This document shows, piece after piece, positions 16,628 to 61,711 of a stretch of DNA of 64,000 nt. Each line of letters opens with the position of its first letter. Within the stretch, counting starts at the first letter, position 1. The notes under the pieces were generated by a model. That model saw only the letters and a program-made list of their open reading frames with translations. It did no database searches and was not told the DNA's origin. Position numbers and translations under genes: made by a program. This stretch comes from Byssothecium circinans. Lineage: Eukaryota > Ascomycota > Dothideomycetes > Pleosporales > Massarinaceae. Where the stretch lies: contig ML976979.1 of the NCBI GenBank assembly GCA_010015675.1, positions 163,556 to 227,555 of the forward strand. The letters are read 5' to 3'.

Positions 16628-17356
16628 TGACCCAGGCCACCGATGGATACCTCGTCTGCTGATGGCACGGGAAGCTGGTCATACTTCTGCTCGTACTCCT
16701 CCAGAGCAACAGATCAAAGTGGATTGATGTGCTCATAATGGTCTGCGTCGTAGCAATTTGTGGGCTTTAATCATCGCTTCGTGGTTGGCTCCCACGACCC
16801 ATCGAACGGAATATCTATCCCAAGCGTTTCTTTTATGGCGAAAACGTTTTCCCTTTACTATATTGCTACTACTACGCTCCCGCTTCTCTATAATACTTAT
16901 AAGAGGTGTTATCTAAGCCGAAGAGTCTCGCGAAGATGCTTACAAGTTGTTATTAGCTGTGTGGCGATGCAGTCACCACCCCTGTCGGTACTTCCGACGC
17001 AAGCATTTTCCAATCTGGCTAGTGCAATACCGCGCAAGTGGCCGTAATTAAGATTATGTGATTTATTCAAGCTGGCTGTGGCTGTGCAGTAGCTAATGAC
17101 CGCTGTTACTTGAATCGCAACTGTTTCTCATAGGCCTAAGCGCTACTGCTAATCACTTTTGGTAAGACGCAGAATAAAATACATCTAGCGAGCATCATGT
17201 AATTATACAGGATTCCTACGCTAAAATTTAGAGTCAATACTCTGGCACGGGGGGACTGTTTACAGAGCATGTCCTAAGGGCTAAGCGCTTTCAAGAGTTA
17301 ATTTATTATCCTCTTCTTATAGGAGCACATTCTTAGGATACTAAAATAAAATATTA
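16628..17356. other. transition into AT-rich RIP-affected DNA
   Basis: Composition changes at about 16,850: the sequence becomes rich in TA, CTA and TAG, and no coding frame survives. I see no gene here. Confidence 0.6.
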
Positions 17357-18341
17357 ACGTAAAGCACCACCGAACCGCCCACACCACCGANNNNNNNNNN
17401 NNNNNNNNNNNNNNNNNNNNNNNNNNNNNNNNNNNNNNNNNNNNNNNNNNNNNNNNNNNNNNNNNNNNNNNNNNNNNNNNNNNNNNNNNNNNNNNNNNNN
17501 NNNNNNNNNNNNNNNNNNNNNNNNNNNNNNNNNNNNNNNNNNNNNNNNNNNNNNNNNNNNNNNNNNNNNNNNNNNNNNNNNNNNNNNNNNNNNNNNNNNN
17601 NNNNNNNNNNNNNNNNNNNNNNNNNNNNNNNNNNNNNNNNNNNNNNNNNNNNNNNNNNNNNNNNNNNNNNNNNNNNNNNNNNNNNNNNNNNNNNNNNNNN
17701 NNNNNNNNNNNNNNNNNNNNNNNNNNNNNNNNNNNNNNNNNNNNNNNNNNNNNNNNNNNNNNNNNNNNNNNNNNNNNNNNNNNNNNNNNNNNNNNNNNNN
17801 NNNNNNNNNNNNNNNNNNNNNNNNNNNNNNNNNNNNNNNNNNNNNNNNNNNNNNNNNNNNNNNNNNNNNNNNNNNNNNNNNNNNNNNNNNNNNNNNNNNN
17901 NNNNNNNNNNNNNNNNNNNNNNNNNNNNNNNNNNNNNNNNNNNNNNNNNNNNNNNNNNNNNNNNNNNNNNNNNNNNNNNNNNNNNNNNNNNNNNNNNNNN
18001 NNNNNNNNNNNNNNNNNNNNNNNNNNNNNNNNNNNNNNNNNNNNNNNNNNNNNNNNNNNNNNNNNNNNNNNNNNNNNNNNNNNNNNNNNNNNNNNNNNNN
18101 NNNNNNNNNNNNNNNNNNNNNNNNNNNNNNNNNNNNNNNNNNNNNNNNNNNNNNNNNNNNNNNNNNNNNNNNNNNNNNNNNNNNNNNNNNNNNNNNNNNN
18201 NNNNNNNNNNNNNNNNNNNNNNNNNNNNNNNNNNNNNNNNNNNNNNNNNNTAGCTTTGTTATTAAGATATCCTGTTTTGATTTTCTAATGCCAAGCTTTT
18301 GAGCGGTTCGGTGGTGTGGGCGGTTCGGTGGTGCTTTACGT
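17357..18341. mobile_element. TA-flanked TIR element with its interior missing
   Basis: The 34 visible bases at the left end (17357-17390) are repeated in perfect inverted form at the right end (18308-18341), where the repeat runs on to 41 bp. The ends begin ACGTAAAGCACCACCGAACC and are flanked by TA (17355-17356 and 18342-18343). The repeat contains the subunit CACCGAACCGC twice. The same termini, with many C-to-T changes, bound the neighbouring Fot1/pogo-like element, so this is a younger relative. Nearly all of the interior is unknown because of the assembly gap. Confidence 0.8.
17391..18250. other. assembly gap (860 N)
   Basis: Undetermined bases. The gap begins inside the left inverted repeat of the surrounding TIR element, so the repeat itself may have broken the assembly, and the true length may differ. 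Confidence 0.95.
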
Positions 18342-29023: not shown

Positions 29024-30037
29024 AAAAGCTAAAGACACTATAATATAACTATAATAGCGATGTAGTAATAATAGATAAAATCTAATAAAAGAAGTAATTT
29101 AATAAAGGTAAGAGAAGATAACTAGACAGCCTAACTTATAAACAATGCTAAGAACGCTTTAAGAAGAAGGTATATCTCTAATATAGCAAAGTAGGATACT
29201 TCTGTAGAGACTACCTAAAGAACTAAGGCTAGGCTAGCAAGCTTAAAGTAGTTAAGATTAGGATAATTAAGTTTAAGGTAATAAGACTTAAGGAGGATAA
29301 ACTAGAAGTACTATATTAGTAGCCTACTCCTTACCTACCTTTAGAACTAGATTAAGCAATAAAACTATCTAATAATAATATTAGTAATATAGATCCTACT
29401 CTACCCTCTAAGGAATTCTAGGAGTTAGAAATATTACGCCTAAGCTAAGGTCTAGCCTAAAATAAAGTACTAGACTAGGTAATTTAACTCTAATTAGATA
29501 TAAAAGTATGCTAGAGGTACGCTAGCACTACACATAAAAGACTAGCTTACATTATATCTATATTAGTGTACAGTAAGAAAGCTAGCGAAGTAGTAGTAAA
29601 AGCTATGCAACTCTAAGGCCTATACGTTAAAGAGGATTATATTAAGGTAGAAGTACTAGAAAAGGATCCTTACTAGAAGGTTAACTAGTATTACTACTAA
29701 GAGAATTACTACCTCTACTATAAGCGCGAATAGGATAAGGTAAGGTATTAACCTAGACGCATGTTATATATTATAGTCCTAGATAAAAACTATCTAGTAT
29801 TAACTTACTATACTTATTACTTTAGTAATTAGCAATAGTAATATAAATATGTTAGATAGTAGAAGTGCTATAACTAGTACTACTAAATATATTAGCTAAA
29901 TAAGTATATTATAGGATATTACCTAGTAGGACTAATAGATAGTAATACACTAGAATATAATATTAAAGACTACTAATATTAACATCCTCTAGAGTACCCT
30001 ATAGACTATAAGTATAAGAAGGTAGACTAGGTATAAT
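29024..30037 (+). mobile_element. Gypsy-A internal segment 2 (gag end)
   Basis: It resumes Gypsy-A right after the Gypsy-B insertion: its first 400 bp align with Gypsy-B from 22,767 on, including the zinc-knuckle region. The rest is more diverged but has the same style of stop-ridden coding sequence. It ends at the outer edge of Helitron copy 1. Confidence 0.7.
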
Positions 30038-30044
30038 AAGATCC

Positions 30045-30072
30045 TTCTAATTTTTGTAAATGGGAATTAGAA
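30045..30072 (-). other. 3'-terminal hairpin of Helitron copy 1
   Basis: TTCTAATT (30045-30052) and AATTAGAA (30065-30072) form a perfect 8-bp stem with a 12-nt loop, about 7 bp from the element's 3' end. Copy 2 has the same hairpin with one G-T pair. Confidence 0.65.
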
Positions 30073-30335
30073 TTTGCAGAGCGATTTATCACTTAGGGTA
30101 GAGAAGAAGAGTAGATACGCAATAAAGCTTTTTCATTCAGATAGTTGAGCTACCTATCCTAGCTAGTATGCTAGAAACCTTCCGTGTTCTAGTCCATTAT
30201 AACTCCTTAAATTAAGTAGTATAGAAAGCTATACTTTACAGATAATATCTATTTAACGCTAGTAGTCATGCCTCATACCGCCTAATACCCTTAAGCTTGA
30301 CATATAGGAGATAGGTAGCATAGTAAGATACAGCA

Positions 30336-31082
30336 TTAGGTGGGTAAGTCCTGCAGAATCTTACTATATAGAGCAAGAATCTTGCCAACACTAATAATAT
30401 GCTTAACATCCTTAGCTTAAATAGTGACGCGCTTCCCATAGATAGCACTAAGGTTTATAGCTAGGCACTATTATTAGCAGAGGCTAATACTATACAAATT
30501 AGACTAATACCTTGTAAGATGTCTACTAGGAAGGCCTTAGTAGTAGCCTATAAGGCGTCTAAAGCCCTAGACTAGAAACGGGACACAGGGTCACTATTTC
30601 CCTCTTAATTATTCTATAGCACCTCGCGAACTAATCTCCTAAATGGCGCTACTAGAATTAAGTTACCTAGAGTCTTCTAGTAGAAACGGATCTCTGCTAG
30701 AGTAAAGGCTAATACTAGTATTAGTCTAGCTATAGTAATATAGGTTAAAAACTTACTACTAGGCTTACGACGCCTAATGTGAGGGCCTCCCTTGCTAGGG
30801 CCTTTATAGATAGGAGCACGCTCCTTCTACATAGCGTAGCTTATTAGCTTCTATGTTAGCGGCGGTGACCCTCCCTTCTTCTTGCGACCCTCATATAGGT
30901 TCGTGCTAGTATTAGTAGGAAGCTTCTTCTAGCCTTTCTTACAAGGACCTAAAGCTAGATATAGTTAACATGTAGCTAATACCAAGACTAATACCTAGCC
31001 TACCTTAGGCGCTATTACCCTTGCCAGCTCTGCCACGAGGAGCCTTTGCAGGCAGCTTGCCTTAATTCTTCTTAGCGGCCAT
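30336..31082 (-). pseudogene. histone H3/CENP-A-like gene carried by Helitron copy 1
   Basis: Starting at ATG 31082 a basic tail (GKLPAKAPRGRAGKG) leads, through probable introns, to IRRRKP and an unmistakable H3 histone fold. The helix alphaN is AEIRFYQKTLGNLI, then APFRRLVREVLQ (H3: LPFQRLVREIAQ), RFQSRALDALQATTKAFLVD (H3: [20 protein letters not shown]) and KRVTI.AKDVKH (H3: KRVTIMPKDIQL). The loop between the first two long helices looks one to two residues longer than in H3, as in CENP-A. In-frame TAA/TAG codons stand where Gln is expected. The closing part (KILALYSKILQD) differs from H3, so the C-terminus or a last intron is uncertain. It lies divergently from the second cargo gene. Copy 2 has the same gene with the same 747-bp span. 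Confidence 0.8.
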
Positions 31083-31892
31083 AATGGTATATTGTAAGGT
31101 ATATAAAAGAAAATAAGGTAGACGTAAACTAACTACTTTTTAGTTAGAAAATAGACGGAAAACCAATAACGTTAATAGTGAAAGTGAAAGTGAGAAATAA
31201 GAATAGTAAAAGTAAGAAATAGGAATAGTAATAGTACGCAAGGAAGTCAAAATTAGTAGGCAATAGAAGGGGAAATTATAGGGGAGTATATACATAGAAA
31301 GGCTAATACTAAGCCTAATACTTTAGTTATAGCTATACTATAGCTATAAAGCTTTGCAACCACAAAGATAGTAAAATTGCAAAGATCGAGAGTTGTTAAA
31401 GTGCGGGGTGGTAGGTAAGCGCGAGAAGTAAGAAGGTAACATAAAGGTAGCTAGTAAGGGTAAGTAGTAAAGGTAAGTAGTAAAGGTGCAAAGAGAAGTA
31501 AAATAAGAGAGAAAATATTACGTTAGCAAGAAAACTACGTATGAAGATAGGAAATAGCTTCTAAAGAGAGACTAATACCTAACCTAATACTATGATTCTA
31601 GTATGTACTTATGCAGCTAACTAAGCTGCACACGCTCATGCCAGAATCATGTCATAAAGTGTTGGGCGCATTTAACGCACATGACAGGCTGGTAATAATT
31701 TCCCGTGATTACTGCCTAGCCCTACTTTTAATTTCATGTAACTATAAATAAACTTATTACTAAAAATTTACTACTTAATACTACTTCCTATATACTCCTT
31801 ATATAACGTCTACGCACTACACGCAACTTTGCCCCACTACTAAATAACGCCTAATACCTACCTAATACATCCTACTAAGCCCTCTCACTGCA

Positions 31893-33682
31893 ATAGCAGA
31901 CTAGAAGAAGGTGAAGGCTACTAATGTATACTTATTAAATGCAAGCACCATTAAAAATAACAAACTTTGCGTAAGTAAGCAGGGCGAAGACTTCATGATT
32001 TAAAAGGGAAAAAACGCTGATAATAAGGTATAACAACCCCCCTATACCTAAATAATTATATACTAACTTAGTAAAGGCGTGCTTTACTTTCTAGATAAAG
32101 AAGTTCTTACTACGTATTCAGCACCTGCTTAATAGCGCTACAGATGAAAATGAGTGTAAGCAACTTAAGGACATACTTCAAATTTAGAGTCATAATGCAG
32201 CGCTTAAGGCTAGGTATAAGAAGAGTATTAGTCTAGTATTAGGTATAACTAATAATATATAGGGAGAGTTAGAATCTACTCTAGATACAGCTAGCTATAG
32301 CACGCACTAGAAAGCTAGAATCTAACTATAAAACTATAAGATTAGTCTTTAAGCCTTAAGAAAAGGTCTAGGCACTAGAAGATAAGTTCATGCTACCTTA
32401 GTATATTATTAACGCTGCCTCATCTACTATTAATAAGAGTGTAGAGAGCAGCAAGTTAAGTAAAAAGGGCAAATCTAACGCAGGCAAAGTGGATAAAAAG
32501 ATAACGGACATTAAGGAGAAAAAAGAAAAATTTGATATAATAGTGCCTAACCTAAGTAATAAAGAGAGGGAAGAATAGACAGAGCTTAGCTACTAGCTAT
32601 AGGTGAAGAGATACTAGAATAGAGAGCTTAACATTATAGTGGAAAAGTTAAGGATTCTCTATTATTAAGGGCTAAAGGGATTTATTCTACGCATGCTATA
32701 AGGTATGTTTATTATAAGTATAACGCAACTAACCTAATACTATAGCTAATACTAAGCAGCACTATATCTAGTGGCTTAACCTAACACTTAATAACTAAGT
32801 TACTCTTCTAGTAGCTAGAAAGAAGCTAGTGCGTTTAGGATAGGTAAGTAGGGTATTAGACCTAGTATTAGTCTAGAACTAACCATTAATAGGCTAGTGC
32901 TACTTAAAAGGTGTTTAAGAAGACTAAATTAAAGCTACCTATATAATAGGGTTAAGTAAGTGTAGTATTAGTTAGGGTATTAGGTATAAGCTAACTATAA
33001 TAGATTATTACTATAAGGTTAGCACTATAGAAGTTAGAAGTGCCTTATAGATACCTAATTAGCGTTAATACTAAGTTAAAGATGCCTATTCCACTATTCC
33101 CTATGCTATTCCCCTAATAATAACGCGTGCTACTCTCTCTAATCTACTAAGCATAGCGTGATGGGGATTATGCAGACTCTACTATCTAACTCTTTCGTGA
33201 TAGTAAAGCATGTAAGCTTCCTAGTACGTATAATCTACGCACTATTAAAGACTATAGCGCACATTTCCCTAAGGTATAGGGTAAGAATGCAGGATATGCT
33301 GCAGATCTACTTAACTATATTATTGTAGAACTTCCTATAGAGAATACTTCCCAAGGCGAACTAATAGAAGGTATATAAATAGAAGAAGATGTAATAGAAG
33401 GTATTAAGCTAGAGGTTCCCTATTAAGGCTATAATAATGGTGTAAAGATGCCTAATATTATGAAATTCATAGAGCTTAAGAGGCTAGGTGATAAGGGTGA
33501 CGTTAATCTAAGTCTATATTTAGTAGATAGTATAGACATAGAGACTATATGCTCTAGGGATTAGGATATAGTCATAGAGTATTAGGCTGTAGTATTAGGC
33601 GCTCTATCTATCTAGATAGATTAGGGAAACTTTTATAGGAATACTTATATTATAGGAAACTACCCTTATAAAACCTCTTAAT
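31893..33682 (+). pseudogene. second cargo gene of Helitron copy 1, function unknown
   Basis: Coding character is visible through RIP stops and several likely introns. The start is ATA here (31893-31895) but ATG in copy 2. The N-terminal part is basic and helical (KKVKAANAYLLNASTIKNNK), followed by a charged helical segment (NSATDENECKQLKDILQIQ), a Lys/Glu-rich region (KVDKKITDIKEKKEKF) and a C-terminal domain with RTIKDYSAHFPKV, IIVELPIENTS and PNIMKFIELKRLGDKGDVN. I do not recognise any domain. It converges on the Rep-helicase gene and diverges from the histone-like gene, so it is part of the element's own set. Both copies keep the whole arrangement. Confidence 0.55.
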
Positions 33683-33719
33683 AATAGTGGTATTAGTCTA
33701 GGTATTAGACCTAGAAAAT

Positions 33720-36700
33720 AGTCTACTGCACTGTGACGTAATGACGCGCCCTACGCCTTATATCCTACTCTTATATCTCTGATACCTTACTTCTCTTTTG
33801 CTTTAACTACTAATAGGAAAATACATCCTTAAACATTAAACCATTAACAGTCTTAACCCTTAAAAGCGCAACGTACATTAAGCTAGGGCAGTAATCTCGC
33901 TCCCTACTAACCGTAATCATAGCCTTATCCACACTTAAACCCTAGGATTTATAAACTGTAATAGCCTAGGCAAGTGTAATAGGGAATTAAATACGCACAT
34001 GCATACTCTAATTAATAGTAAATTCCTAAACAAGAGGAAACACTAGAATAACCTTTGTACTATCTAGAAGGCTGTAAAGACACAGCTTATCATACTTATC
34101 TATAGCGACTAATACCGCCTTTAGTGTAGCCTTGCGATAATCCTAGGTATTAGACTACTAAAGGATATTATTAATAACCCCTATAGCCCTATTAACTAAA
34201 CTACGCTCTGTCTAGATATTATTAAGTAGCATAACCTAGGCACTAATAAATACAGGGAGCTAGTTATAGAGATTCCCTGCATCCTTAGTAGACACCTTCT
34301 CTTAATCTTAACTATTATGTGTAGCCTATAAAATAAGGATAGGCTAGCTAGAGTCCTAGAGGTAGTTATGATTAATAGCAGCTACCTCTATCCTCTTTGC
34401 GCATATACGTAAGGTAGAATTAAAGGAGTTCCGTTCTACCTCACTAAGCTTAACGCTGCAGCGTTTCATAAGGAGAAGCTAGTCATAGACATTAGGCTTC
34501 TCCTTATGGATACGTGCAAGAGTATTATAGAAGGAAGCCTATTTAGAACCCTACTAGCGCATAACTACATCTAGAACAATAGTTCTAGTAAATAGTTTAT
34601 ATAGCACCACACTAGCTATATCTAAAGAGCTGTGGCTCTTTATAGTATTAAATATAGGCCTTCTCATGATAGGGGGTAACTAGTAAAAATCACTAGCTAG
34701 GATAATGTTTAAACCGCTAAAAGGATAGCTAGCCTGTGCTAGAAAGATCTTACGGCACCTTATATTTAACCACGCTAGTGTTGTTAGCCCTACTATAGAC
34801 TTCTCATCTATAATAAGGTAATAAATATTAGTAAATAGCGCTTAGGTCTAAGCTAACGCTACTAGAGCAAGAGGTGGAAGCACACCACTAGGAGGTCAAA
34901 TTAGTATGCGGAAGGTAGAGTGGATAGTCTTTCCTAAAATAAGAAAAGTAGCTACTCTAGTTAGTGCGCACCATATAATAGGTGATTTCTTCCTTAAAGC
35001 CCTCGTAATACTATCTATAGTAGAGGTTATAACCTTAATAGCATACATCTTTCTAGTACCACCCTGGCCGTTAAGGTTAAGAAGAAGCTGCTCTAGCCTA
35101 TTCCTATCTAGGTAGGCTTGATAATAATTAATAATGAGATTGAATAGTAGCCGCTGTTTAGACTAAAGGGTATTAGGCGAGGTATTAGGTCTAGTAGCGT
35201 AATTAACTAGATAAGCTATCTTTATCTCCTTCTAATATTAACGTGCATTAAGGCCGTAACTATCCTTATGCTTAGGTACGTTCTAATCCTTCTCTAGATT
35301 AACTAGCTAACTACCTAGGTTATCCTTATTAATGATAACACTATCAGCACTAGGGAGATAACTAGCAAGCTTATTCTATAATAACTTATCCGCTAAATCC
35401 ACGTCTTCCTAATCTAGATCTTCTTCCTTGTTTTCAGGTAACACCTCTCTAAAGCTATTAGGTAAAGGGTGATTGCATACTAATAGGCAGTTCTGATAGG
35501 CTTGCAAGAATAACTAGTACTCCTAGCCGGCAAAGGTCCTTACATCTAATACCTGTTGAAATAGATGATGTAGCATAAGCTTGACGCGAGAGAAGTCTTC
35601 CCTATCTAACTTAGGAGAGTATAGAGGGTAAAACTTCAAAATCCTAGGCCTAGCCTAGGGCCTAACTTAATTCTTTGCATGGTCATAATAAGAAGGTAGT
35701 CTAAATAGGATATGGCTTTAAGTAATAGAGGCCTCTCCTTATATTTTACTAGCACAGAACGGCCCTTAGTAAACTAAGGTATATCTTCCTTAAATACTTC
35801 ATCATTAACTTAATGATTAGCTTAAAAGACGTACGTCTTAGGCTGATCCTCCTTATAATAAAGGTTAACGTTAAGAATAGTATAACTATAATCCATAAGG
35901 GATAGATTAAAGAGGATGTAGTAAACTTCCTAAGCGCTATAGTCCCTCTAGCCCACCAATTTATTTATTAACTTTGCTATAAACTTAAATATAGCATTCT
36001 TAGACTAGATATAAGGTAGTATCTTAGTAGCTATATCCTTAAATGACGTCATCTACTACTCTACCTTGCTAACATATAGACTAACATATTAAACAACACC
36101 TATAGTACTAGTATAGGGCTGTATATTAGTATTAGCCCACCAGCCTAATACTAGAGTTCGACAGTACGCGTTTAGAAGTGGATGATTCCGTTGAGCGTAG
36201 AGATGGTAAAAAGACTTCCTAGCTAATTTAGTAAAGTAGGGATTAGCTATATGTGGCTAGAGAGCCTTAAAGTAATAGACTACCTTACCTATCTTCTTAT
36301 TTTTCCTTTGGTAGTAACTAAGATAACATACATGCATGTAGCACTTAGTCAAGATAGTAGCAAGTTCGTAAAAGTCAAAAACCATCTAATTAAATATAAG
36401 AGATAAGGGGGAGCTATATGAATGCTCTAGAGTAGCCTTATGTGGGTCAGGATGAACAGCGCTAATATAATAGCCCTAATACTTTGCTAATTATCGCTTC
36501 TCAAGCTTAGTAGTATTCTGAGCTAAATACTAATTAGGATGAGGTACATCCCTATAGTAGTATAGGCTATAGTTATAAGTACTACTACGGCCCTGCCACT
36601 CGTAACAATGCTAGAAGTTAATAAGGTTAAACTTAGGCATCATAACATGCTTCTTAAATAGTTCAAATTGACGGTAGAACTAGTAAGCAACAATATGTAG

Positions 36701-39090
36701 GTTATCGCGTACGAAATCCTATACCAGCCTTGCTTAACGTGCATTAGTTATAGTCTGCTACTTAGTAAAGGCCTCCTCTCCTATAAATCTTATAAGATTA
36801 GCCTAATAGTAATCCGCAGTAGAGTATGTGATAAATAGATAAGGATATCACAGCTAACGAACCTATTAATAAAAGTTAGATATTAATAATAAGGGTATTA
36901 GCTAGGTATTAGGTAGACTATACGTACTATAGCCTTTAGGTTTATACCCTCTACTTTCTAATACGCATAAGAACCTTAAATAGAGGTAAAGAACTATACT
37001 ACAGCATTAATCAAATTCTGCCCACTATTAGCGCTATTAAACTGAGCTTGAATATCCTTAGCTGTTATAGAAGCGCCGTCTAGTGTCTTCCTTACAAAGA
37101 AACCCGCCTTTATAGTAGTTTGCCTACGGAGAAGCGTATTAAAGGTAGTAAAATAGAAACGTAAGTAATAAGTAAAACGTCTATCCTTATAGCTTATTAT
37201 ATGCTAAACATAGTCCACATATGTAACCTCCTGCATCCTTAGTTGCATATAGTTACCAATTCCATTTAGATACAAGGTAGGAAATGCAAGACTAAGGATC
37301 TTTTCCTAATTGCTATATTTAGAAATAGGTGTCCTTCGCACTAAGCCCATAGTAAGGTAGGAAGGTCTTAATTAGATTTAATAACGTAAAGTCTTAAATT
37401 TACTAATATTAGGAATAATATTAGGAACTATGGTCGTGTTAGCTCTATTATCGTTATTATCATCCTTATCAAAAATTAAGCTACCATCGTAGTAGGAATC
37501 CGCGCTAGTATTAGGCCTAGTATTAGGTAGTGACCTATCTAGTGTATAAGTAGTTATAGCAGGTATAGATAGTAGGGGTGAATAGTCTAGCGTATAGGAT
37601 AGTAACACTAGCTCTTACGTATTAGGATAATCCCCTAGCCTAATGTCTATATCCCTATACTAAAGTATAGTAAATTGATCGTCTATATACCTATTAATAG
37701 AGAGTTCTTGAATAGCCTCATCATTAATAATAATATTACTGTATCTAGAGTGATGTGCCTTTAACTATTATAGCTAACGCAACACTATAGTACGCCTTAC
37801 TTTCTAACTCTTCTTAAATTAACGTTTAACTAAAGTGTGGTCGTCCTTATCTGAATATAGTAGTTTAAGGATAATAATATTAAGCTTAGATAGAAGGATA
37901 AGAAGCCTTAAAAATACCCTAGCTATATTAATAGTGAAATGACATATATGCCCTTTATACTTATACTGCTACCCACGATGCTAACATATCTGCATAAAAT
38001 AGTGAATCTAGGCAATAAGCATCTCCTTAACATTAGTAAGAGAAGGGAGGTTAGGCATTACACCTAGATCCATATTATTTATAGTACTAAATATAGGCAC
38101 CTAATCCTCTTTAGTACTATATTTAACATGATTAGTTAAACAGGTAGTATATTCCCTATAGCAAACGTTTAGGCGAAACTAATAATAGTTATAAATTATA
38201 CACGTCTCTATCTCTTCTTTCTTAAGTGCGTTATAAAATGTAGAGATATACGTTTTATCTTAATTAGATAATGCAGGATTAGAAAGATGGGAACTATTAT
38301 CCTAAATTTATAATAGGGGCTCTTTTTAAAGGAAGTTATATATATTCTCTTCCACCTCTATAAGCATCTCTCTATCTATACTATTATTAAACTTATTAAC
38401 TACATGTTCTTAAGACTTAGCTGCTGCTATACTATTATCTAACTCGTCAACTATATGTTCTTTAGACTTAGCTGCTATATAGGTTGTATGACTAATACTA
38501 GGACTAATACTAGAGCAAGTATCGCGTAATTATACTAAAGATAGAGGGGTATTCTATAAAATACCCTCCCCTTACTATTATGAATACTATAGCTATGATG
38601 TAGAATGTATCGCGGCCATCTATAGTAATAGTTAACTAGAAAGCGTTTATAATAATAATAGGGGTTTAATAGGAGTTATAGCGCTTAGTAGTGCTAATAG
38701 GGGAAGTTAGGATAGGTAAAGTAATAGTAACGTATTTAAAGACTAAGATAGTAGCCTAATACTAAGACTAATACTAGCCGTATAAAGAAGCTGCTACTTA
38801 AGTAGAGTCCCTAGTGCAGTTAGCGCATATAGCGTAGACGTTAGTATAGATTAAGGTTAGACTAGTATTAGAGTATAGAGAATACTAGATAAAGGACTAG
38901 AGTCTAACGTTAGCGTTACGTGATACTTTGTAGGGGGTGTAGCTTTGTGTTCTAATATATTTACTTACCATTTATAACTCTAAGTAACTATAAGGCAAGC
39001 CTAACAGTTCTTCTTCTATTTATTATTACGAAATTAATTAACGCCAGGCATAAGAGGTGCGTTGCAGTAATTACAGTGTGGAACATCCAT
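33720..39090 (-). pseudogene. Helitron Rep-helicase gene (DUF6570, Rep, Pif1 helicase), copy 1
   Basis: On the minus strand from ATG 39090 a Cys-rich start (HCNYCNAPLMPG) is followed by the DUF6570 signature (EMLIAQIHYFMQICQ-RGQQYKY, VKRQFKKSQKVRRT). Next come the Helitron-like N/Rep region (LNAYCRTLVLGWWANTNIQP, VSLYVSK) and a Pif1-type helicase with Walker A (GQGGTRK for GQGGTGK, about 35,070-35,040), ASDFY-LPPI, LDVVMR and a C-terminal YKSQGLS...YVALLRVK segment. These are the parts of a rolling-circle RepHel protein. Stops are frequent, almost all at expected Gln or Trp codons. Confidence 0.85.
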
Positions 39091-39540
39091 AATAACGTGT
39101 AAGGGTACGTGGATAGAGGGAAGTAGTATTAGGTAGTATTACAAGGTATTAGGCCTATAGTATAGTGAATTTTTTCTTTATAACATAGGGTTTAGTTATG
39201 TTGCCGCATGCAGTAGCTAGTAGATAAAGTGGCGTAAGTAGCTTTTAGACCCTAAGCCCCTATTTCACTGCCTAATATAGGACACGCGACATGCGTATTA
39301 GTCGTGATTCTAAAGAACATCATTTAAAAAACACTGTTTTATCCACGCATACCTATTATAATAAATTAAATATAGGCTGCTATTAGTAGAACTATTAAGG
39401 GTACAGTTTTTAGCATATATAGAAAAATTAGCAATAAAATTCAATAGGTAGAAGTACGTCAAAATGCGATTTTTTGGAAGCTCTCAGGCGTGATTTGGAT
39501 TGTAGATTTGCTACGCTCGTTCCTCGCTCCGCAAAATAAG

Positions 39541-43146: not shown

Positions 43147-43596
43147 CTTATTTTACGGAGCGAGGAACGAGCGTAGCAAATCTACAATCTAAATCGCGCC
43201 TGAGGGCTTCTAAAAAATCGCATTTTAACGTACTTCTACCTATTGAATTTCATTGCTAATTTTTCTATATATGCTAAAAACTGTACCCTTGATAGTTCTA
43301 CTAATAGTAGCCTATATTTAATTCGTTATAATAGGTATGCGTGGATAACACAGTATTTTTTAAATGATATTCTTTAGAATCACGACTAATACGCGTGTTG
43401 CGTGTCCTGTATTAGGCAGTGAAACAGGGGCTTAGGGTTTAAAAGCTACTTACGCTACTTTGTCTACTAGCTACTGTATGCGGCAACATAACTAAACCCT
43501 ATGTTATGAAGAAAAAATTTGCTATACTATAGGCCTAATACCTTATAATACTACCTAATACTACTTCCTTCTATCTACGTACCTTTACACGTTATT

Positions 43597-46500
43597 ATGG
43601 ATGTTCTATACTGCAATTGCTATAACGCACCTCTTATGCCTGGCGTTAATTAATTTCGTAATAATAAATAAAAGAAGAACTGTTAGGCTTACCTTATAGT
43701 TACTTAGAGTTATAAACGGTGAGCAAATATATTAGAGCATAAAGCTACACCCTCTATAAAGTATTACGTAATGCTAACGTTAGACTCTAGTCCTTTATCT
43801 AGTATTCTTTATACTCTAACGCTAGTCTAACCTTAATCTATACTAACGTCTACGCCGTATGCGCTAACTACACTAGGGACTCTACTTAAGTAGTAGCTTC
43901 TTTGTGCGGCTAGTATTAGTCTTAGTATTAGGCCACTATCTTAGTCTTTAAATACGTCACTATTACCTTACCTATCCTAACTTCCCCTATTGGCACTACT
44001 AAGCGCCATGACTCCCATTAAACCCCTATTATTATTATAAACGCTTTCTAGTTAACTATTACTATAGATAGCTATAATACATTCTATATTATAGCTATAG
44101 TATTTATAATAGTAAGGGGAGAGTGTTTTATAGAATACCCCTCTATCTTTAGTGTAATCACGCAATACTTACTCTAGTATTAGTCCTAGTATTAGTCATA
44201 CAACCTATATAGTAGCTAAGTCTAAAAAACATGTAGTTAATAAGTTAGATAATAATATAGTAGTAGCTAAGTTTTAAGAGTATATAGTTAATAAGTTTAA
44301 TAATAGTGTAAATAAAGAGATACTTATAAAAGTAGAAGAGAATATATATAACTTCCCTCTAGAAGAGCCCCTATTATAAATTTAAGATAATAGTTCCTAT
44401 CTTTCTAATCCTACATTATCTAATTAAGATAAAATATATATCTCTACGTTTTATAACGCACTTAAGAAAGAAGAGATAGAGACGTGTATAATTTATAACC
44501 GTTATTAGTTTTACCTAAACGTTCGCCGTGGGGAATATGCTGCCTATTTAACTAATTACGTTAAATATAGTGCTAAAGAGGATTAGGTGCCTATATTTAG
44601 TGCTGCAAATAATATAGATCTAGGTGTAATGCCTAACCTCCCTTCTCTTACTAATGTTAAGGAGATGCTTATTACCTAGGTTCACTATTTTATGCAGATA
44701 TGTTAGCATCGTGGGCAGCAGTATAAGTACTAAGGGCATATATGTTATTTTACTATTAATGTAGCTAGGGTATTTTCAAGGCTTCCTATCCTTCTATTTA
44801 AGCTTAATATTATTATCCTTAAACTACTATATTTAGATAAGGACGACCACGCTTTAGTTAAACGTTAATTTAAGAAGAGTTAGAAAGTAAGGCGTACTAT
44901 AGTATTACGTTAGCTATAATAGTTAAAGGCATATCACTCTAGATATAGTAATATTATTATTAATGATAAGGCTATTCAAGAACTCCCTATTAATAGGTAT
45001 GTAGACGATTAATTTACTATGCTTTAGCATAGGGATATAGATATTAGGCTAGGAGATTATTCTAATACGTAAGAGCTAGTATCGCTATCTTATACGCTAG
45101 ACTATTTACCCCTACTATTTATACCTACTGTAACTACCTATATACTAGATAGGTTACCACCTAATACTAGGCCTAATACTAGCGCGGATTCCTACTACGA
45201 TGGTAGCTTAATTTTTGATAAGGATGATAATAACGATAATAGAGCTAACACGACCGTAGTTCCTAATATTGTTTCTAATATTAGTAAATTTAAGACTTTA
45301 TATTATTAAATTTAATTAAGACCTTTCTACCTTACTATGGGCTTAGTGCGAAGGACACCTATTTCTAAATATAGTAATTAGGAAAAGATCCTTAGTCTTA
45401 TATTTTCTACTTTGTATCTAAATGGAATTAGTAACTATATGCAACTAAGAATAAAGGAGGTTGCATATACGGACTATGTTTAGCATATAATAAGCTATAA
45501 GGATAGACGTTTTACTTATTACTTATGTTTCCATTTTACTGCCTTTAATACGCTTCTCCATAGGTAAACTACTGCAAAGGCAGGTTTCTTTATAAGGAAG
45601 ACACTAGACGGCGCTTCTATAATAGCTAAGGATATTTAAGCTTAGTTTAACAGCGCTAATAGTAGGTAGAGTTTAATTAACGCTGTAGTATAATTCTCTA
45701 CCTCTATTTAAGGTTCTTATGCGTATTAGAAAGTAGAGGGTATAAACCTAAAGGCTATAGTACGTGTAGTCTACCTAATACCTAGCTAATACTCTTATTA
45801 TTAATATCTAACTTTTATTAATAGGTTTGTTAGCTATAATATCCTTATCTATTTGTTACATACTCTACTGCGGATTACTATTAGGCTGATCTTATAAGAT
45901 TTATAGAAGAGGAAGCCTTTACTAAGTAGTAAACTATAACTAATGCACGTTAAGTAAGGCTAGCATAGGATTTCGTATGTAACAACCTACACATTATTGC
46001 TTACTAGTTCTACCGTCAATTTAAACTATTTAAAAAGCATGTTATAACGCCTAAGTTTAACCTTGTTAACTTCTAGCATCGTTATGAGTGGTAGGGCTGT
46101 GATAGTACTTATAACTATAGCCTATACTACTATAGAGATGCACCTTATCTTAATTAGTATTTAGCTTAGAATGCTACTAAGCTTAAGAAGCGATGATTAG
46201 CAAAGTATTAGGGCTATTACATTAGCGCTGTTTATCCTGACCTACATAAGGCTACTTTAGAGCATTTATATAGCTCCCCCTTATCTCTTACATTTAATTA
46301 GATAGTTTTTAACTTTTATAAACTTGCTACTATCTTGACTAAGTGCTACATGCATGTATGTCATCTTAGTTACTGCTAAAGGAAAAACAAGAAGATAGGT
46401 AAGGTAGTCTATCGCTTTAAGGCTCCCTAGCTACGTATAGCTAATCCCTACTTTACTAAATTAGCTAGGAAGTCTTTTTACCATCTCTACGCTTAACGGA

Positions 46501-48970
46501 ATTATCCACTTCTAAACGCGTACTATCGAACTCTAGTATTAGGCTAGCGGGCTAATACTAATATACAGCCTTATACTAGTACTGTAGGTATTATTTAATA
46601 TGTTAGTCTATATGTTAGTAAGGCAGAGCAGCAGATAACGTTGTTTAAGGATATAGCTACTAAGATACTACCTCATATCTAGTCTAAGAATGCTATGTTC
46701 AAGTTTATAGCAAAGTTAATAAACAAATTAGTAGGCTAGAGGGACTATAGCGCTTAGGAAGTTTACTACATCCTCTTTAATCTACCCCTTATAGATTATA
46801 GTCATACTATTTTTAACGTTAACCTTTATTATAAGGAGGATTAGCCTAAGACGTACGTCTTTCAAGCTAATTATTAAGTTGATGATAAAATGTTTAAGGA
46901 AGATACACCTTAGTTTACTAAGGGCCATTCTGTGCTAGTAAAATATAAGGAGAGGCCTCTATTACTTAAAGCTATATCTTATTTAGACTACCTTCTTCAT
47001 TATAACTATGTAAAGAATTAAGTTAGGCCCTAGGCTAGGCCTAGGATTTTGAAGTTTTACCCTCTATACTCTCCTAAGTTAGATAGGGAAGACTTCTCTC
47101 ACGTTAAGCTTATGCTACATTATCTATTTTAACAGGTATTAGATGTAAGGACCTTTACTAGCTAGGAGTACTAGTTATTCTTGCAAGCCTATTAGAACTA
47201 CCTATTAGTATGCAATCACCCTTTACCTAATAGCTTTAGAGAGGTGTTACTTAAAAACGAGGAAGAAGATCTAGATTAGGAAGACGTGGATTTAGTAGAT
47301 AAGTTATTATAGAATAAGCTTGCTAGTCATCTCCCTAGTGCTAATAGTGTTATTATTAATAAGGATAACCTAAGTAGTTAGCCAGTTAATCTAGAGAAGG
47401 ATTAGAACGTACCTAAGCATAAGGATAGTTACGGCCTTAATGCACGTTAATATTAGAAGGAGATAAAGATAGCTTATCTAGTTAATTACGCTACTAGACC
47501 TAATACCTCGCCTAATACCCTTTAGTCTAAATAGTGGCTACTATTTAATCTTATCGTTAATCATTATTAAGTCTATCTAGATGGGAATAGGCTAGAGTAG
47601 CTTCTTCTTAACCTTGACGGCCAAGGTAGTACTAGAAAAACGTACGCTATTAAGGTTATAACCTCTACTATAGATAGTATTACAAGGGCTTTAGGGAAGA
47701 AATTACCTATTATATGGTGCGCACTAACTAAAGTAGCCGCTTTTCTTATTTTAGGAAAGACTATCTACTCTACCTTCCGCATACTAATTTAACCTCCTAG
47801 TGGTGTACTTCCACCTCCTACTCCAGCAGTGTTAGCTTAGACCTAAGCGCTATTTACTAATGTTTATTACTTTATTATAGATAAGAAGTCTATGGTAGGG
47901 CTAATAATACTAGCGTAGTTAGATATAAGGTACCGTAAGATCTTTCTAGCATAGGCTAGCTATCCTTTTAGCAGTTTAAATATTATCCTAGCTAGTGATT
48001 TTTACTAGTTACCCCCTATTATAAGAAGGCCTATATTCAATACTACAAAGAGCCACAGCTCTTTAGATATAGCTAGTGCAGCACTATATAAACTATTTAC
48101 TAGAACTATTGTTCTAGATGTAGTTATGCGCTAGTAGGGTTCTAAATAGGCTTCCTTCCGTAATGCTCTTATACGTATCTATAAGGAGAAGCCTAATGTC
48201 CATGACTAGCTTCTCCTTATAAAACGCTGCAGCGTTAAGCTTAGTAAGGTAGAACGGAACTCCTTTAATTCTGCCTTACGTATATGCGTAAAGAGGATAG
48301 AGGTAGCTGCTATTAATCATAACTACCTCTAGGACTCTAGCTAGCCTATCCTTATTTTATAGGCTACACATAATAGTTAAGATTAAGAGAAGGTGTCTAC
48401 TAAGGATGCAGGGAATCTCTATAACTAGCTCCCTGTATTTATTAGTGCCTAGGTTATGCTACTTAATAATATCTAGACAGAGCGTAGTTTAGTTAATAGG
48501 GCTATAGGGGTTGTTAACAATATTCTTTAGCAGCCTAATACCTAGGATTATCGTAAGGCTACACTAAAGGCGGTATTAGTTGCTATAGATAAGTATGATA
48601 GGCAGTATCTTTACAGCCTTCTAGATAGTACAAAGGTTATTCTAGTGTTTCCTTTTATTTAGGAATTTACTATTAATTAGAGTATGCATGTGCGTATTTA
48701 ATTCCCTATTATACTTGCCTAGGCTATTACAGTTTATAAATCCTAGGGTTTAAGTATGGATAAGGCTGTAATTACGGTTAGTAGAAAGTAAGATTACTAC
48801 CCTAGCTTAATATACGTTGCGCTTTTAAGGGTTAAGACTATTAATGGTTTAATGTTTAAGGATGTGTTTTCCTATTAGCGGTTAAAGTAAAAGAGAAGCA
48901 AGGTATTAGAGATGCGAGAGCAGGATATAAGACATAGGGCGCGTCATTACGTTATAGTGTAGTAGACTAT
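43597..48970 (+). pseudogene. Helitron Rep-helicase gene, copy 2
   Basis: Counterpart of the gene at 33720-39090, starting at ATG 43597 (MDVLYCNC-NAPLMPG). DUF6570, Rep-like (LNAYYRTLVLGWRANTNIQP) and Pif1 helicase parts are all readable. The Walker A is altered here too (GQGSTRKTYAIKVI), and LDVVMR and YKSQGLSMDKA follow. It is as riddled with stops as copy 1 but at partly different positions, so the two were mutated partly independently. Confidence 0.85.
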
Positions 48971-49019
48971 TTTCTAGGTCTAATACCTAGACTAATACCA
49001 CTATTATTAAGAGGTTTTG

Positions 49020-52000
49020 TAAGGGTAGTTTCCTATAATATAAGTATTCCTATGAAAGTTTCCTTAATTTATCTAGATAGATAGAGCGCCTAATACTATA
49101 GCCTAATACAGTAATGCGTCAAAAGTTCATTCTACTAAGCGAGAAACATTAAAACGCGTGAACGTGTTAATACCTTCAACCTACCACCACAATGCCTCAA
49201 CCACGTTGGTTTAGTACAGAAATCTCTAGAAATGCCCGTAAAAGGCTAAATACTACTCCCCTCAAGCGTAAGCAAATCATTGCTAAGTAGCAAGCTAGGT
49301 GTATAATAGGAGAGCTAGCTAATAAGTTTAGCCGTACCACGCGTAGGATACGTAAAATTATCTACTAATTTTTACAGCACTACACTACTAAGGATTTGCC
49401 TCGCTCTGGCCGTCTAAAATACCTCTCACAAAGAACAATTAATCAAATTAAATACTTTATACAAAAGACACTAAAAATCAAGTATAATACGCTTATGTGT
49501 GAGATAGGATAGGACCCCCCTACTACTAGCCCTTTACGCTCTACTATCTATCGCGTGATTAGAGAGGTTAGATTACGGAACTACTAATGCTCTAAGCGAC
49601 CTAAAATTAACCGTGTGATAGCTATTTTAAGGCTTAAGTAGTCTAGAGAGTATCGCAACTACCTATAGAGGCGCTGCCTATTTCACTTCTTAGATAAGTG
49701 CTCTATTTAAAAGGGCTCTAGGGCCAATACTAAGTAGGCCTTTCAATATCTTAATAAGAGATAGAGTTATAAGATAGTTACTAAGTATACTAAGAGCCAT
49801 CCTCCTTAACAAATGGTATAGGCAGAGGTGTGGCTTACTTAAAGGGGTAGTATACAAAAGAGTAAATTAGTGATTATAAAAAGAGACCTATAAGTTACCT
49901 ACTAAGGATATATAACCTAGAGCTATTTAGAGGCTTTAGAGGAGGGCTTATTACCCTATTACTAACTAGAAGAGATCTTTATGCAGGATAACGCTCCTAT
50001 CTATACGTTAGGGGTAGGAAAGGATTTCTTAGAGAGACACGGTATTTAGGTTACTAAGTAGCCATCCTATTCACCTGACCTTAACCTAATCAAGCACCTT
50101 TGGTGGAGGCTTAAAAGGATTATGTATACTGAGTTTCCTTAATTCAATAACTACTCAAGAGCCTAAGAGCATTGGGATGAGTTTTATGAGGCTTTAAAGG
50201 AGGCATAGCGGAGGATACCAAGCACGCTTATTAAGCGACTCATCCTTAGCATGCCCAGTTAAATCGCGGCCTGCAGGCGGGCAAAAGGCTATCAAATAAA
50301 ATACTAAGTATTTATCTACTACTACACTAAATATATCACCTGTATATGATTGCGCTCTATATATATAGCCTCAATTTGGATGGGCGTTAGGTCGTGTTTT
50401 AGTGATTTTCGCTTAGCGCGAAGCGAACTTTTAACCTAGTACTATACTCCATGACTATATCTTAATCCCTAGAGCATATAGTCTCTATGTCTATACTATC
50501 TACTAAATATAGACTTAGATTAACGTTACCCTTATCACCTAGCCTCTTAAGCTCTATAAATTTCATAATATTAGGCATCTTTACACTATTATTATAGCCT
50601 TAATAGGGAACCTCTAGCTTAATACCTTTTATTGCATCTTCTTCTATTTGCACACCTTCTATTGGTTCGCCTTTGGAAGTATTCTCTGTAGGAAGTTCTA
50701 CAATGATATAGTTAAGTAGATCTGCAGCATATCCTACATTCTTGCCCTATACCTTAGGGAAATATGCGCTATAGTCTTTAATAGTGCGTAGATTATACGC
50801 ATTAGGAAGCTTGCATGCTTTACTATTATAAAAGAGTTAGATAGTAGAGTCTACATAATCCCTATCATGCTGTGCTTAGTAGATTAGAGAGAGTAGCACG
50901 CGTTATTATTAGGGGAATAGCATAGGGAATAGTAGAACAGGCATCTTTGACTTAGTATTAATGCTAATTAGGTATCTATAAGGCACTTTTAACTTCTATA
51001 GTGCTAACCTTGCAGTGATAATCTATTATAGTTAGCTTATACCTAATACCCTAACTAATACTACACTTACTTAACCCCATCGCATAGGTAGCTTTAATTT
51101 AGTTTTCTTAAACACCTTTTAAGTAGTACTAGCCTATTAATAGTTAGTTCTAGACTAATACTAAGTCTAATACTCTACTTACCTATCCTAAACGTACTAG
51201 CTTCTTTCTAGCCACTAAAAGAGCGACTTAGTTATTAAGTGTTAGGTTAAGCTACTAGATATAGCGCTGCTTAGTATTAGCTATAGTATTAGGTTAGTTA
51301 CGTTACACTTATAATAAATATGCCTTATGGCATGCGTAGAATAAATCCCTTTAGCCTTTAATAATAGAGAATCCTTAACTTTTTTACTATAATGTTAAGC
51401 TCTCTATTCTAGTATCTCTTCACTTATAGCTAGTAGCTAAGCTCTATCTATTCTTCCCTCTCTTTATTACTTAGGTTAGGCACTATTATATTAAATTTTT
51501 CTTTTTTCTCCTTAATATTTGTCATCTTTTTATCCACTTTGCTTACGTTAGATTTGCCCTTTTTACTTAATTTGCTGCTCTCTACACTCTCATTAATAGT
51601 AGATGAGGCAGCGTTAATAATATACTAAGGTGGCATAAACTCATCTTCTAGTGCCTAGACCTTTTCTTAAGGCTTAAAGACTAATCTTATAGTTTTATAA
51701 TTAGATTCTAGCTTTCTAGTGCATGCTATAGCTAGCTATATCTATAGTAGATTCTAATTCTCCCTATGTATTATTAGTTATACCTAATACTAGACTAATA
51801 CTCTTCTTATACCTAGCCTTAAGCGCTGCATTATGACTCTAAATTCAAAGCATGTCCTTAAGTTACTTACGCTCATTTTCATCTGTAGCGCTATTAAGTA
51901 GGTGCTAAATACGTGGCAAAAACCTCTTTATCTAGAAAGTAAAGCACGCCTTTACTAAGTTAGTATATAATTATTTAGGTATAGGGAGGTTATTATACCT

Positions 52001-52133
52001 TATTATTAGCGTTTTTTCCTTTTTAAATTATGAAGTCTTCGCCCTACTTACTTGCGTGAAGTTTATTATTTTTAATAGTGCTTATATTTAATAAGTATGC
52101 ATTAGCAGCCTTTACCTTCTTCTGGTCTGCCAT
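49020..52133 (-). pseudogene. second cargo gene of Helitron copy 2, split by a Tc1 element
   Basis: Counterpart of 31893-33682. The start codon is intact here (ATG 52133, MADQKKVKAANAYLL). The C-terminal part (YNLRTIKDYSAYFPKV, IIVELPTENTSKGEPIEG) is readable up to the Tc1 element at 50444 and continues beyond it at 49108-49020. Function unknown. Confidence 0.55.
49109..50444 (+). mobile_element. Tc1/mariner element copy in Helitron 2, RIP-degraded
   Basis: 1336 bp, the same length as the copy at 60374-61709 and in the opposite orientation. TA flanks both ends (49107-49108, 50445-50446). The left end has GTCAAAAGTTC; the right end has the inverse with changes. The transposase start (ATG at 49192, MPQPRWFSTEIS) and the DNAPI and SPDLNLI segments of the DDE domain are readable among stops. 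Helitron copy 1 keeps the empty TA site at 33580-33581. Confidence 0.88.
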
Positions 52134-52949
52134 TGCAGCAAGAGGGCTTAGCAGGATGTATTAGGTAGGTATTAGGCGTTATTTAGTAGTAGGGTAAAGT
52201 TGCGTGTAATACCTAGACGTTATATAAGGAGTATATAAGAAGTAGTATTAAGTAGCAAATTTTTAGTAATAAGTTTATTTATAGTTACATAAAATTAAAA
52301 GTAAGGCTAGGTAGTAATTACGGGAAATTATTACTAGCCTGTCGTGTGCGTTAAATGCGCCCAACACTTTACGACATAATTCTAGCATAAGCGCGTGTAG
52401 CTTAGTTAGCTGTATAAGTATATACTAGAATTATAGTATTAGGTTAGGTATTAGTCTCTCTTTAGAAGCTATTTCCTATCTTTATATGTAGTTTTCTTGC
52501 TAACATAATATTTTCTCTCTTATTTTACTTCTTTTTACACTTTTACTTTTACTACTTACCTTTACTACTTACCCTTACTAGTTACTTTTACGTTACTTTC
52601 TTACTTCTCACACTTACCTACTACCCCGCACTTTAACAACTCTTAATCTTTGCAATTTTGCTATCTTTATAGTCGCAAAGCTTTGTAGCTATAGTATAGC
52701 TACAACTAAAGTATTAGGCTTAGTATTAGCCTTTCTATATATATACTCCCCTATAATTTCCCCTTTTATTACCTACTAATTTTAACTTCCTTGCGTACTA
52801 TTACTATTCCTATTTTTTACTTTTATTATTCTTATTTCTTACTTTTACTTTCACTATTAATGTTATTAGTTTTCCATCTATTTTCTAACTAAAAAGTAGT
52901 TAGTTTACGTTTACCTTATTTTCTTTTATACACCTTACAACATACCATC

Positions 52950-53696
52950 ATGGCCGCTAAGAAGAATTAAGGCAAGCTGCCTGCAAAGGCTCCTCATAGC
53001 AGAGCTAGCAAGGGTAATAGCGCCTAAGGTAGGCTAGGTATTAGTCTTAGTATTAGCTACATATTAACTGTGTCTAGCTTTAGGTCCTCGTAAGAAAGGC
53101 TAGAAGAAGCTTCCTACTAATACTAGTATAAACCTATATAAGGGTTATAAGAAGAAGGGAGGGTCGCCGCTACTAATACAAAAGCTAATAAGCTACGCTA
53201 TGCAGAAGGAGTATACTCCCATCTATAAAGGCCCTAGCAAGGGAGGCCCTTACATTAGGCGTCGTAAGCCTAGTAGTAAGTTTTTAACCTATATTACTAT
53301 AGCTAGACTAATACTAGTATTAGCCTTTACTCTAGTAGAGATCTATTTCTACTAGAAGACTTTAGGTGACTTAATTCTAGTAGCGCCATTTAGGAGATTA
53401 GTTCGCGAGGTACTACAGAATAATTAAGAGAGAAATAGTAACCCTATGTCCTATTTCTAGTCTAGGGCTTTAGACGCCTTATAAGCTACTACTAAGGCCT
53501 TCCTAGTAGATATCTTATAAGGTATTAGTCTAATTTATATAGTATTAGCCTCTGCTAATAATAGTGCCTAGCTATAAACCTTAGTGCTATCTATAGGAAG
53601 CGCGTTACTATTTAAGCTAAGGACGTTAAGCATGTTATTAGTGTTAGCAAGATTCTTGCTCTATATAGCAAGATTCTGCAGGACTTGCCCGCCTAA
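52950..53696 (+). pseudogene. histone H3/CENP-A-like gene carried by Helitron copy 2
   Basis: Same 747-bp span and exon pattern as the copy 1 gene. ATG 52950 starts the basic tail; then RRRKP, EIYFYQKTLGDLILVAPF, RRLVREVLQ, SYFQSRALDALQA, KAFLVDIL and, after a short probable intron, KRVTI.AKDVKHVIS follow. Stops replace Gln codons. The three likely introns each contain or overlap the paired GTATTAG/CTAATAC motif that is scattered through the element. Confidence 0.78.
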
Positions 53697-53959
53697 TGCT
53701 ATATCTTACTATGCTACCTATCTCCTACATGTTAAGCTTAAGGGTATTAGGCGGTATAAGGCATGACTACTAGCGTTAAATGGATATTATCTGTAAAGTA
53801 TAGCTTTCTATACTACTTAATTTAAGGAGTTATAATGGACTAGAACACGGAAGGTTTCTAGCATACTAGCTAGGATAGGTAGCTTAACTATCTGAATGAA
53901 AAAGCTTTATTACGTAACTACTCTTCTTCTCTACCCTAAGTGATAAATCGCTCCGTAAA

Positions 53960-53987
53960 TTCTAATTCCCGTTTACGAAAATTGGAA
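53960..53987 (+). other. 3'-terminal hairpin of Helitron copy 2
   Basis: TTCTAATT (53960-53967) pairs with AATTGGAA (53980-53987), seven Watson-Crick pairs and one G-T, with a 12-nt loop, followed by GGATCTTA at the element's end. Confidence 0.6.
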
Positions 53988-53994
53988 GGATCTT

Positions 53995-54870
53995 AGTTCC
54001 TTCTATGGAAGAATTTGCTAACTTTAGTTCTAAGCATCTTAAATATCTTGTTAAATCTATTAATAAAAGCTAGAATAATGCTATTCTAGTAATTAAACCT
54101 CGTCTATAATCTAACTATTTAGTAGGATTTAAACAAATAACGTTTACTAAGGACTAACTTAATAAGCTTTAACTTTTTATTAGCGAGTTCCTTAATAGAG
54201 ATCTATCTTTTTTTATAGCTATATTCTACATATACTTCCTATTCCTAACGTGCGAAGTAAAATGCGGTGCTATAGCACTTAATGTCGTAGACTAGTAGAA
54301 TGCTTATAGTATAACACTTATAGTTAAGGCGATTATTAAGCTTTTTAGGCTTATAAAGTGCGAACAATAGCTTTACTAGTAAATCCTAGCTTTCTCTATT
54401 TCTTATAACTACTTTTTAGTAAGAATCTATAGCTACTACTTTGTAATTAAGGGAAAAGATACTACTTATTATTATTACCTTATCTACGAGTTTAGTTTTA
54501 CGGCGTTTAATAGAAAAAAAAATAGACGGCATATAAGTTTACTAAGAATATCTATAATACATAGATACCTACGCACTTAGATAGGATTTACTTTATTATT
54601 AGCAAGTTACCGTTTAATTTTAACTTTAAAGTCCCGCTGCTTCTAAAGGAATCTAGACTTTCGTAAAACTTAAAAAGTTATTATTTTTTATAATTATTCA
54701 CGGCGTTAGAATCTTTACTAGGGGAGCATAGCAGTTAGTTAGGCATTATTAATGCAGGAAATATTACTCTAGACACGTTATTTACTAGACAAGAAGTATT
54801 AAAAAAGCTAAGAAGAAATACTGCAAAATTGCCGGCCCTAAGTATAAAACGCTAATAACTTGTTATCATT
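53995..54870 (+). pseudogene. DUF7924-type gene relic, downstream part
   Basis: Continues the relic interrupted by Helitron copy 2: the frame before the element ends in DIT-LI and the frame after it begins VPSMEEFANFS, as in intact family members. Conserved DUF7924 segments follow: NYLVGFKQITFTKDQLNKL, YFLFLTCEVKCGAIALN, QQNAYSITLIVKAIIKLFRL, QILAFSISYNYFLVRIYSYY and a tail with ITLDTLFTR. Stops again stand at Gln and Trp positions. Confidence 0.65.
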
Positions 54871-61709: not shown

Positions 61710-61711
61710 TA

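Follow-up and report, generated by a model that had tools for sequence, protein, structure and literature searches.

The question raised by this locus is whether a transposon can carry, and make use of, a histone of its own. The locus lies in a window of 64,000 nucleotides from the ascomycete Byssothecium circinans (contig C3, positions 163556-227555), and searches were extended from it to the genome (48.4 Mb in 109 contigs). An initial annotation of the window had placed at 30336-31082, within a Helitron, a gene for a histone H3 or CENP-A-like protein. These coordinates proved exact, with the ATG at 31082 and the stop codon ending at 30336 on the minus strand. The gene consists of four exons (31082-31004, 30954-30757, 30696-30511, and 30460-30336), and GT-AG borders are found at all three introns in 14 of 14 aligned copies, in agreement with the claim that the gene has its own introns and start codon. 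A second gene, at 52950-53696 on the plus strand, confirms that both element copies in the window carry it. The protein signatures given for the two genes had been read through in-frame stop codons as if these were residues: there are 11 internal stops in the first (copy A) and 9 in the second (copy B), and neither would therefore be able to make the protein.

For the identity of the protein, the least mutated copy, on contig C62, was spliced to a query of 195 amino acids in which the single stop, near the start, was written as X. This query matches the Pfam Histone profile PF00125 with an E-value of 9.6e-22 (78 bits, against a cut-off of 26.4) and the solved histone H3 chain 7e9c_A with an E-value of 4.3e-19, bearing out the assignment to the H3 family fold. 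The best 60 of its 176 solved-chain matches are all named H3 and none CENP-A, and a scan of NCBIfam returned no family above cut-off. Even the exon of copy A matches PF00125 (E 3.2e-5) despite four TAG codons and one TAA codon, over a histone-fold stretch at 30509-30700 on the minus strand (C3:194064-194255). A chance match to histones was considered, and is ruled out by the E-value of the spliced protein, the four exons, and the intron borders common to the 14 copies. When the genome was searched with PF00125, 23 places were found at E-values up to 0.001, the window copy included. As read, 16 of these are the H3 exon in element copies and 7 belong to host genes, namely canonical H3 (C63), CenH3 (C13, two exons), and four other histone-fold genes.

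The element protein departs from canonical H3 at both ends. Its N-terminal tail is long and is devoid of the ARKS contexts of the canonical H3 tail, the LARRIRGERA end is likewise absent from the 195 residues, and the C-terminal segment is new relative to both host H3 and host CenH3. With the numbering that we assume for H3, counterparts of H113, R116, D123, R83, and T118 are kept, whereas those presumed to correspond to R63 and K64 are not. Because these two residues and the usual LARRIRG end of helix 3 are missing, assembly of the protein into nucleosomes is not assured. As predicted from its sequence, the product is an orphan of the H3 family with a complete histone H3 fold.

The surroundings of the gene agree with the claim that it lies inside a Helitron. 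The window is AT-rich from about 18 kb on (GC mostly 0.30-0.38, compared with about 0.5 before), with a long run of N in an AT-rich stretch at about 17350-18280, and contains two inverted copies of one element. Copy A occupies 30037-39537 on the minus strand (9501 bp) and copy B 43150-53995 on the plus strand, the latter with an insert of 1.3 kb at about 49104-50441. The insert is a repeat that is also found, inverted and outside the element, at 60377-61714. In copy A, a RepHel reading frame at 33720-38107 (minus strand; limits approximate, transferred from those of C62) includes matches to Helitron_like_N at 36581-36865 and to PIF1 at 34545-35168, and in copy B the PIF1 helicase stretch lies at 47610-48149 on the plus strand (C3:211165-211704). 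Rep, the PIF1-type helicase, and H3 are all encoded on one strand, and 299 bp separate the end of the H3 gene from the 3' end of copy A. Between the helicase and H3 lies a chain of reading frames on the opposite strand to RepHel, divergent from H3 (31873-33568, plus strand in copy A; likewise approximate and carried over from C62). It is rich in lysine and glutamate, and two pieces of it that were scanned gave no Pfam family above cut-off. In this approximate model the antisense chain starts about 0.8 kb away from the H3 gene on the other strand, making the divergent promoter proposed for H3 plausible.

The element possesses both the Rep and the PIF1-type helicase expected of a Helitron. In what we take to be the HUH site of Rep, HNH is found in two of eight aligned copies, and the remaining six have Y at one of these places or at both. 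The element ends are identical at 11 5' and 14 3' junctions while the flanks differ, and no target-site duplication was seen by eye at the ends compared. A 12-bp asymmetric terminal inverted repeat, TTTGCGGAGCGA, is located near the 5' end, with its complement 36 bp before the 3' end (in copy A, within the 3' terminus at 30037-30100, minus strand). Such an arrangement resembles that described for FoHeli, a Helitron2 of Fusarium oxysporum, for which the paper gives an asymmetric inverted repeat of 12 to 16 bp, a 3' arm some tens of base pairs before the end, and a length of 5-11 kb, compared with 9.5 kb here, with Rep and helicase in both (PMC5148889). FoHeli differs in its end sequences, and the word histone has no occurrence in the main text of that paper (PMC5148889). 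Judged by its ends and predicted proteins, the element belongs to the Helitron2 group of rolling-circle transposons.

How regularly does the element carry H3? The block at the H3 end has 32 matches in the genome, 28 sizeable and four confined to the terminus. Among the 28, 25 hold the whole gene and one starts 25 bp inside it; the remaining two are a match on C59 without the gene end and one at C14:1090k that stops before the gene. Every one of the 26 sizeable matches extending to the 3' end thus has the H3 gene, which for this reason is regarded as a regular part of the element; since the query included the gene, end-bearing elements without H3 would be detected only as terminus-only matches. 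Two of the latter (C33 and C17) are short derivatives, sharing the terminus but with no H3 match of weight, and the other two (C107 and C7) represent a second family. A search for exon 4 gave 26 first-family and two second-family places. A capture restricted to the window is ruled out by the 28 sizeable matches. The initial annotation held that the gene had belonged to the element before it was duplicated, and the 26 copies, together with the second family, place it there before the copies spread. At three helicase-bearing loci with no H3 match in the stretch fetched (C30, C23:111k, and C99), similarity extends as far as element positions 7605, 6958, and 6566, in each case short of the gene. 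The derivative on C33 (L045, C33:228558-229566) measures 1.0 kb and retains both element ends, a AGCTCGATA-type internal repeat having replaced the genes. A viral-contig scan, which detects close relatives only, gave seven pattern matches, none of them confirmed.

The copies are young and heavily mutated. Eight uninterrupted copies out of the 14 were aligned over their full length; seven are 9508 bp long, with no gaps between them, and the eighth is copy A, at 9501 bp. Any two of the eight differ by 3-12 transversions and 563-1003 transitions over 9.5 kb. In the H3-end block of all 14 copies, the CpA context accounts for 91 of 140 two-state C/T columns and, on the other strand, for 81 of 126 two-state G/A columns. 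Given the few transversions between copies and their differing flanks, the pattern of substitutions points to a recent burst of insertion at independent sites, followed by RIP. Mutation of the RIP type is heavy in 13 of the 14 copies: at variable transition columns, C or G is kept at 254 of 266 in the C62 copy and at 112-198 in the other 13. Each copy has at least one internal stop in the H3 gene, from one (C62) to 11 (copy A), and no stop position is common to all 14. The 588-nt H3 reading frame has no indels among the 14, but the copies are too young for this to carry much weight, and comparison among them cannot show selection.

For evidence of selection, the second family is more informative. 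The elements on C107 and C7 share a 3' end and are strongly diverged from the first family; they are known from two copies of the 3' part alone, in which no Rep was seen. In C7, exon 4 is 43% identical to that of the first family over 35 residues (E 1e-5), and the same exon 4 residue lies 312 bp from the element end, the first-family distance being 314 bp. Exon 3 can be read, though it contains stops. The position of intron 3 is shared, and the second-family intron also holds two GTATTAG motifs. The two H3 genes are treated as one capture, since they have their place, intron 3, and C-terminal segment in common. The antisense gene was also sought in this family, with matches at chance level alone (best E 0.3).

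RIP makes transitions only, and transversions were used as the measure of divergence for that reason. In a protein-guided alignment of 96 codons, which left out second-family exons 1 and 2, where the tail is not reliably readable, 33 residues agree when stops are counted as differences, and transversions at codon positions 1, 2, and 3 number 20, 9, and 36. Over the 87 ungapped codons the numbers are 18, 8, and 32 (chi-square p 5e-4; position 2 versus position 3, p 1.8e-4). Such a pattern is that of a gene kept as protein-coding, and by this codon measure H3 has been under purifying selection for at least some of the interval following the split of the two genes.

Gene capture is common to Helitrons, and a host H3 gene picked up by chance could simply ride along without function. 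The two window copies are pseudogenes and the short derivatives manage without H3, as expected of such cargo, and histone fragments are reported from a mosquito Helentron (PMC4067079). This ordinary capture is nevertheless disfavoured, and we consider it very improbable, given that H3 sits at the same place in two diverged families with a coding-type pattern of transversions. As read, host H3 and CenH3 also have their core introns at other positions than the element gene, and the indel-free frame of the 14 copies points the same way, with the little weight that young copies allow.

If the gene is kept for its product, the question becomes what kind of H3 it encodes. The initial annotation had leaned towards CENP-A, and the evidence divides. 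Core identity is 53% to each of the host proteins (48 of 90 residues for H3, 51 of 96 for CenH3), on top of the shared H3 fold; the element protein is set apart from both by its lack of the canonical tail, its new C-terminal segment, and its different core intron positions. The lengthened loop was correctly noted, as loop 1 exceeds that of host H3 by five residues, compared with three in host CenH3, and helix 2 contains EAFLV, as do human CENP-A and host CenH3. The residue before QS in helix 2, however, is F as in H3 and not the W of the CenH3 type (a W that is absent from fly CID too), and the end of helix 3 is unlike both host proteins. In a tree of eight sequences, element H3 stands beside host CenH3, with support (70/94) below significance, and constrained trees of the same eight place it with all CenH3 (p-AU 0.284) or with H3 (0.282), neither being rejected. 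It is because the tree rejects neither placement that the protein is described as an H3-family orphan, and CENP-A type membership is a possible reading of the sequence.

The loop, the EAFLV motif, the best tree, and a match to the chaperone Scm3 at one place in the host genome would all suit a CENP-A mimic, one that guides the element, or its integration, towards centromeric chromatin as a safe haven, or competes with CenH3. Against it stand the tree support short of significance, the F before QS, the divergent helix 3 end, and the spread of element insertions over many contigs, and we regard such a role as improbable.

A second unusual feature of the element is the heptamer GTATTAG. The C62 copy (9508 bp) has 41 occurrences where 1.8 are expected, a number reached in none of 500 simulations, and the window copies are similarly dense, with 48 against 5.1 expected in copy A (30037-39540) and 50 against 5.5 in copy B, insert included (43147-53995). 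Other zones of the window are at chance level (5 against 5.8, 0 against 1.8, and 3 against 4.3, and in the GC-rich part 1 against 1.4; the counts left out 16.9-18.4 kb), which rules out a motif common throughout the AT-rich zone. The motif is also in excess in the second family (17 against 1.4 and 5 against 0.7) and in the 1.0-kb derivative (4 against 0.1). In the C62 copy, 13 same-strand neighbours lie within 40 bp of each other, 11 of them at 11-13 bp, or about one helical turn, and two at 20 bp; random placement would give 0.25 pairs at 11-13 bp. Genome-wide, close pairs number 376, against one for the reversed pattern.

The distribution of the motif bears on its origin. Within the C62 H3 gene, six motifs fall in the 159 bp of introns and none in the 588 bp of exons; others lie in the 5' part (6), the RepHel span (11), the antisense span (13), the H3 5' flank (4), and behind the gene (1). 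GTATTAG opens H3 intron 3 (30461-30510 in copy A, minus strand), whose C62 counterpart has two motifs, and it is present in all three H3 introns and in several candidate introns of the antisense chain. The pairs may thus be splice-site-like pieces of spreading, introner-like introns unrelated to H3, which would then act alone. Many motifs are outside modelled introns, on both strands, as in the 5' region, the H3 5' flank, and the RepHel span, and the motif also occurs in the derivative with no H3 match; these facts and the one-turn spacing make this origin unlikely.

Such an array has a parallel in the Arabidopsis transposon VANDAL21, whose protein VANC21 binds to arrays of the sequence YAGTATTAY and causes the transposon to lose DNA methylation (PMC5735166). 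There, as reported, the motifs are dense, in a single orientation, and mainly in non-coding parts, including introns (PMC5735166), and the element described here has the dense, element-specific short motif that a VANC-like system calls for, with the same-orientation arrangement and the presence in non-coding parts and introns. The likeness between GTATTAG and YAGTATTAY may be chance, and the analogy rests on the similarity of layout. The systems differ in that VANDAL21 is a MuDR-type DNA transposon, VANC is no histone (PMC5735166), and some of the GTATTAG motifs are inside the RepHel span.

Histone H3 requires H4, and this bears on a further role, in which H3 packages or stabilises the replication product of the element, whether displaced strand or circle, and so aids rolling-circle copying. 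No H4 was seen: a scan of six element pieces returned a single histone, and each of the 16 PF00125 places in element copies is the H3 exon. Packaging would also leave the motif array unexplained. We judge it rather improbable, even though H3 adjoins RepHel on the same strand and other rolling-circle transposons carry RPA proteins for which binding of single-stranded DNA has been proposed (PMC4067079).

The best explanation, to which we assign a probability of about 0.42, is that the element makes a chromatin variant that opposes silencing. It is favoured by the tail without ARKS, the motif array, and the habit among transposons of carrying silencing-related cargo. For instance, fungal Helitrons are among the DNA transposons reported to carry a TET/JBP dioxygenase, and an oomycete proto-Helentron carries a SET domain (PMC12730594, PMC4067079). 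The TET/JBP cargo acts on a silencing mark and is thought to oppose silencing; that cargo is an enzyme, whereas the cargo here is a histone (PMC12730594). Two DNA-methylase matches in the host genome count on the same side. Every step beyond the keeping of the H3 gene by selection is one that we infer. The variant would join host H4 in nucleosomes on element DNA, and such nucleosomes would be free of the standard H3K9 and H3K27 marks, since ARKS, the context of both lysines, is missing from the tail. The paired GTATTAG motifs would be read by a protein of the element, for which the antisense gene product is a candidate, and this protein would steer the variant to the element. The resulting anti-silencing chromatin would allow the transposon to stay expressed from one round of RIP to the next. 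The complete scheme is more doubtful: a selfish element would build chromatin of its own, with an H3 variant proof against the usual silencing placed by an element protein according to an address code of paired GTATTAG motifs.

Several observations count against an anti-silencing variant. Two terminus-bearing short derivatives have no H3 gene, a lysine before GPSKGG in the element protein is a possible stand-in for K27, and GTATTAG may have multiplied passively as introns spread. Nor did the protein prevent RIP, as stops are found in 14 of 14 copies, most of them heavily RIP-mutated.

To place the finding among known elements, the full text of open-licence papers was searched, subscription papers and Repbase Reports being outside the scope, and among the papers listed no title or opening of an abstract describes a transposon with a whole histone gene. 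The closest case is Helentron-Cq-32A of Culex, a rolling-circle element with broken H4 and H15 fragments, which are described as having premature stops, a frameshift, and indels, and as 83-84% like their putative host parents (PMC4067079). The initial statement that no Helitron with such cargo was known needs qualifying on this point (PMC4067079). In the present element the cargo is a whole H3 gene, kept in two diverged families. In the text of a paper on Pleurotus Helitrons, the word histone has no occurrence (PMC4289320).

If a transposon maintains an entire histone by selection, its arsenal in the silencing contest would gain a weapon of a new type, and the system would test directly whether parasitic DNA is able to select the nucleosomes in which it is packed. 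The anti-silencing weapons known from transposons are enzymes or DNA-binding proteins. Elements of this kind would also be a possible route by which new H3 variants arise and spread, and the GTATTAG array provides a ready experimental handle. Among the motif-pair matches listed, two satellites with a 12-bp unit and one isolated site make up all those outside known element copies; the satellites, with the unit GTATTAGAACTA, a near-match to the motif pair, lie at C3:590273-590351 and C7:131977-132019.
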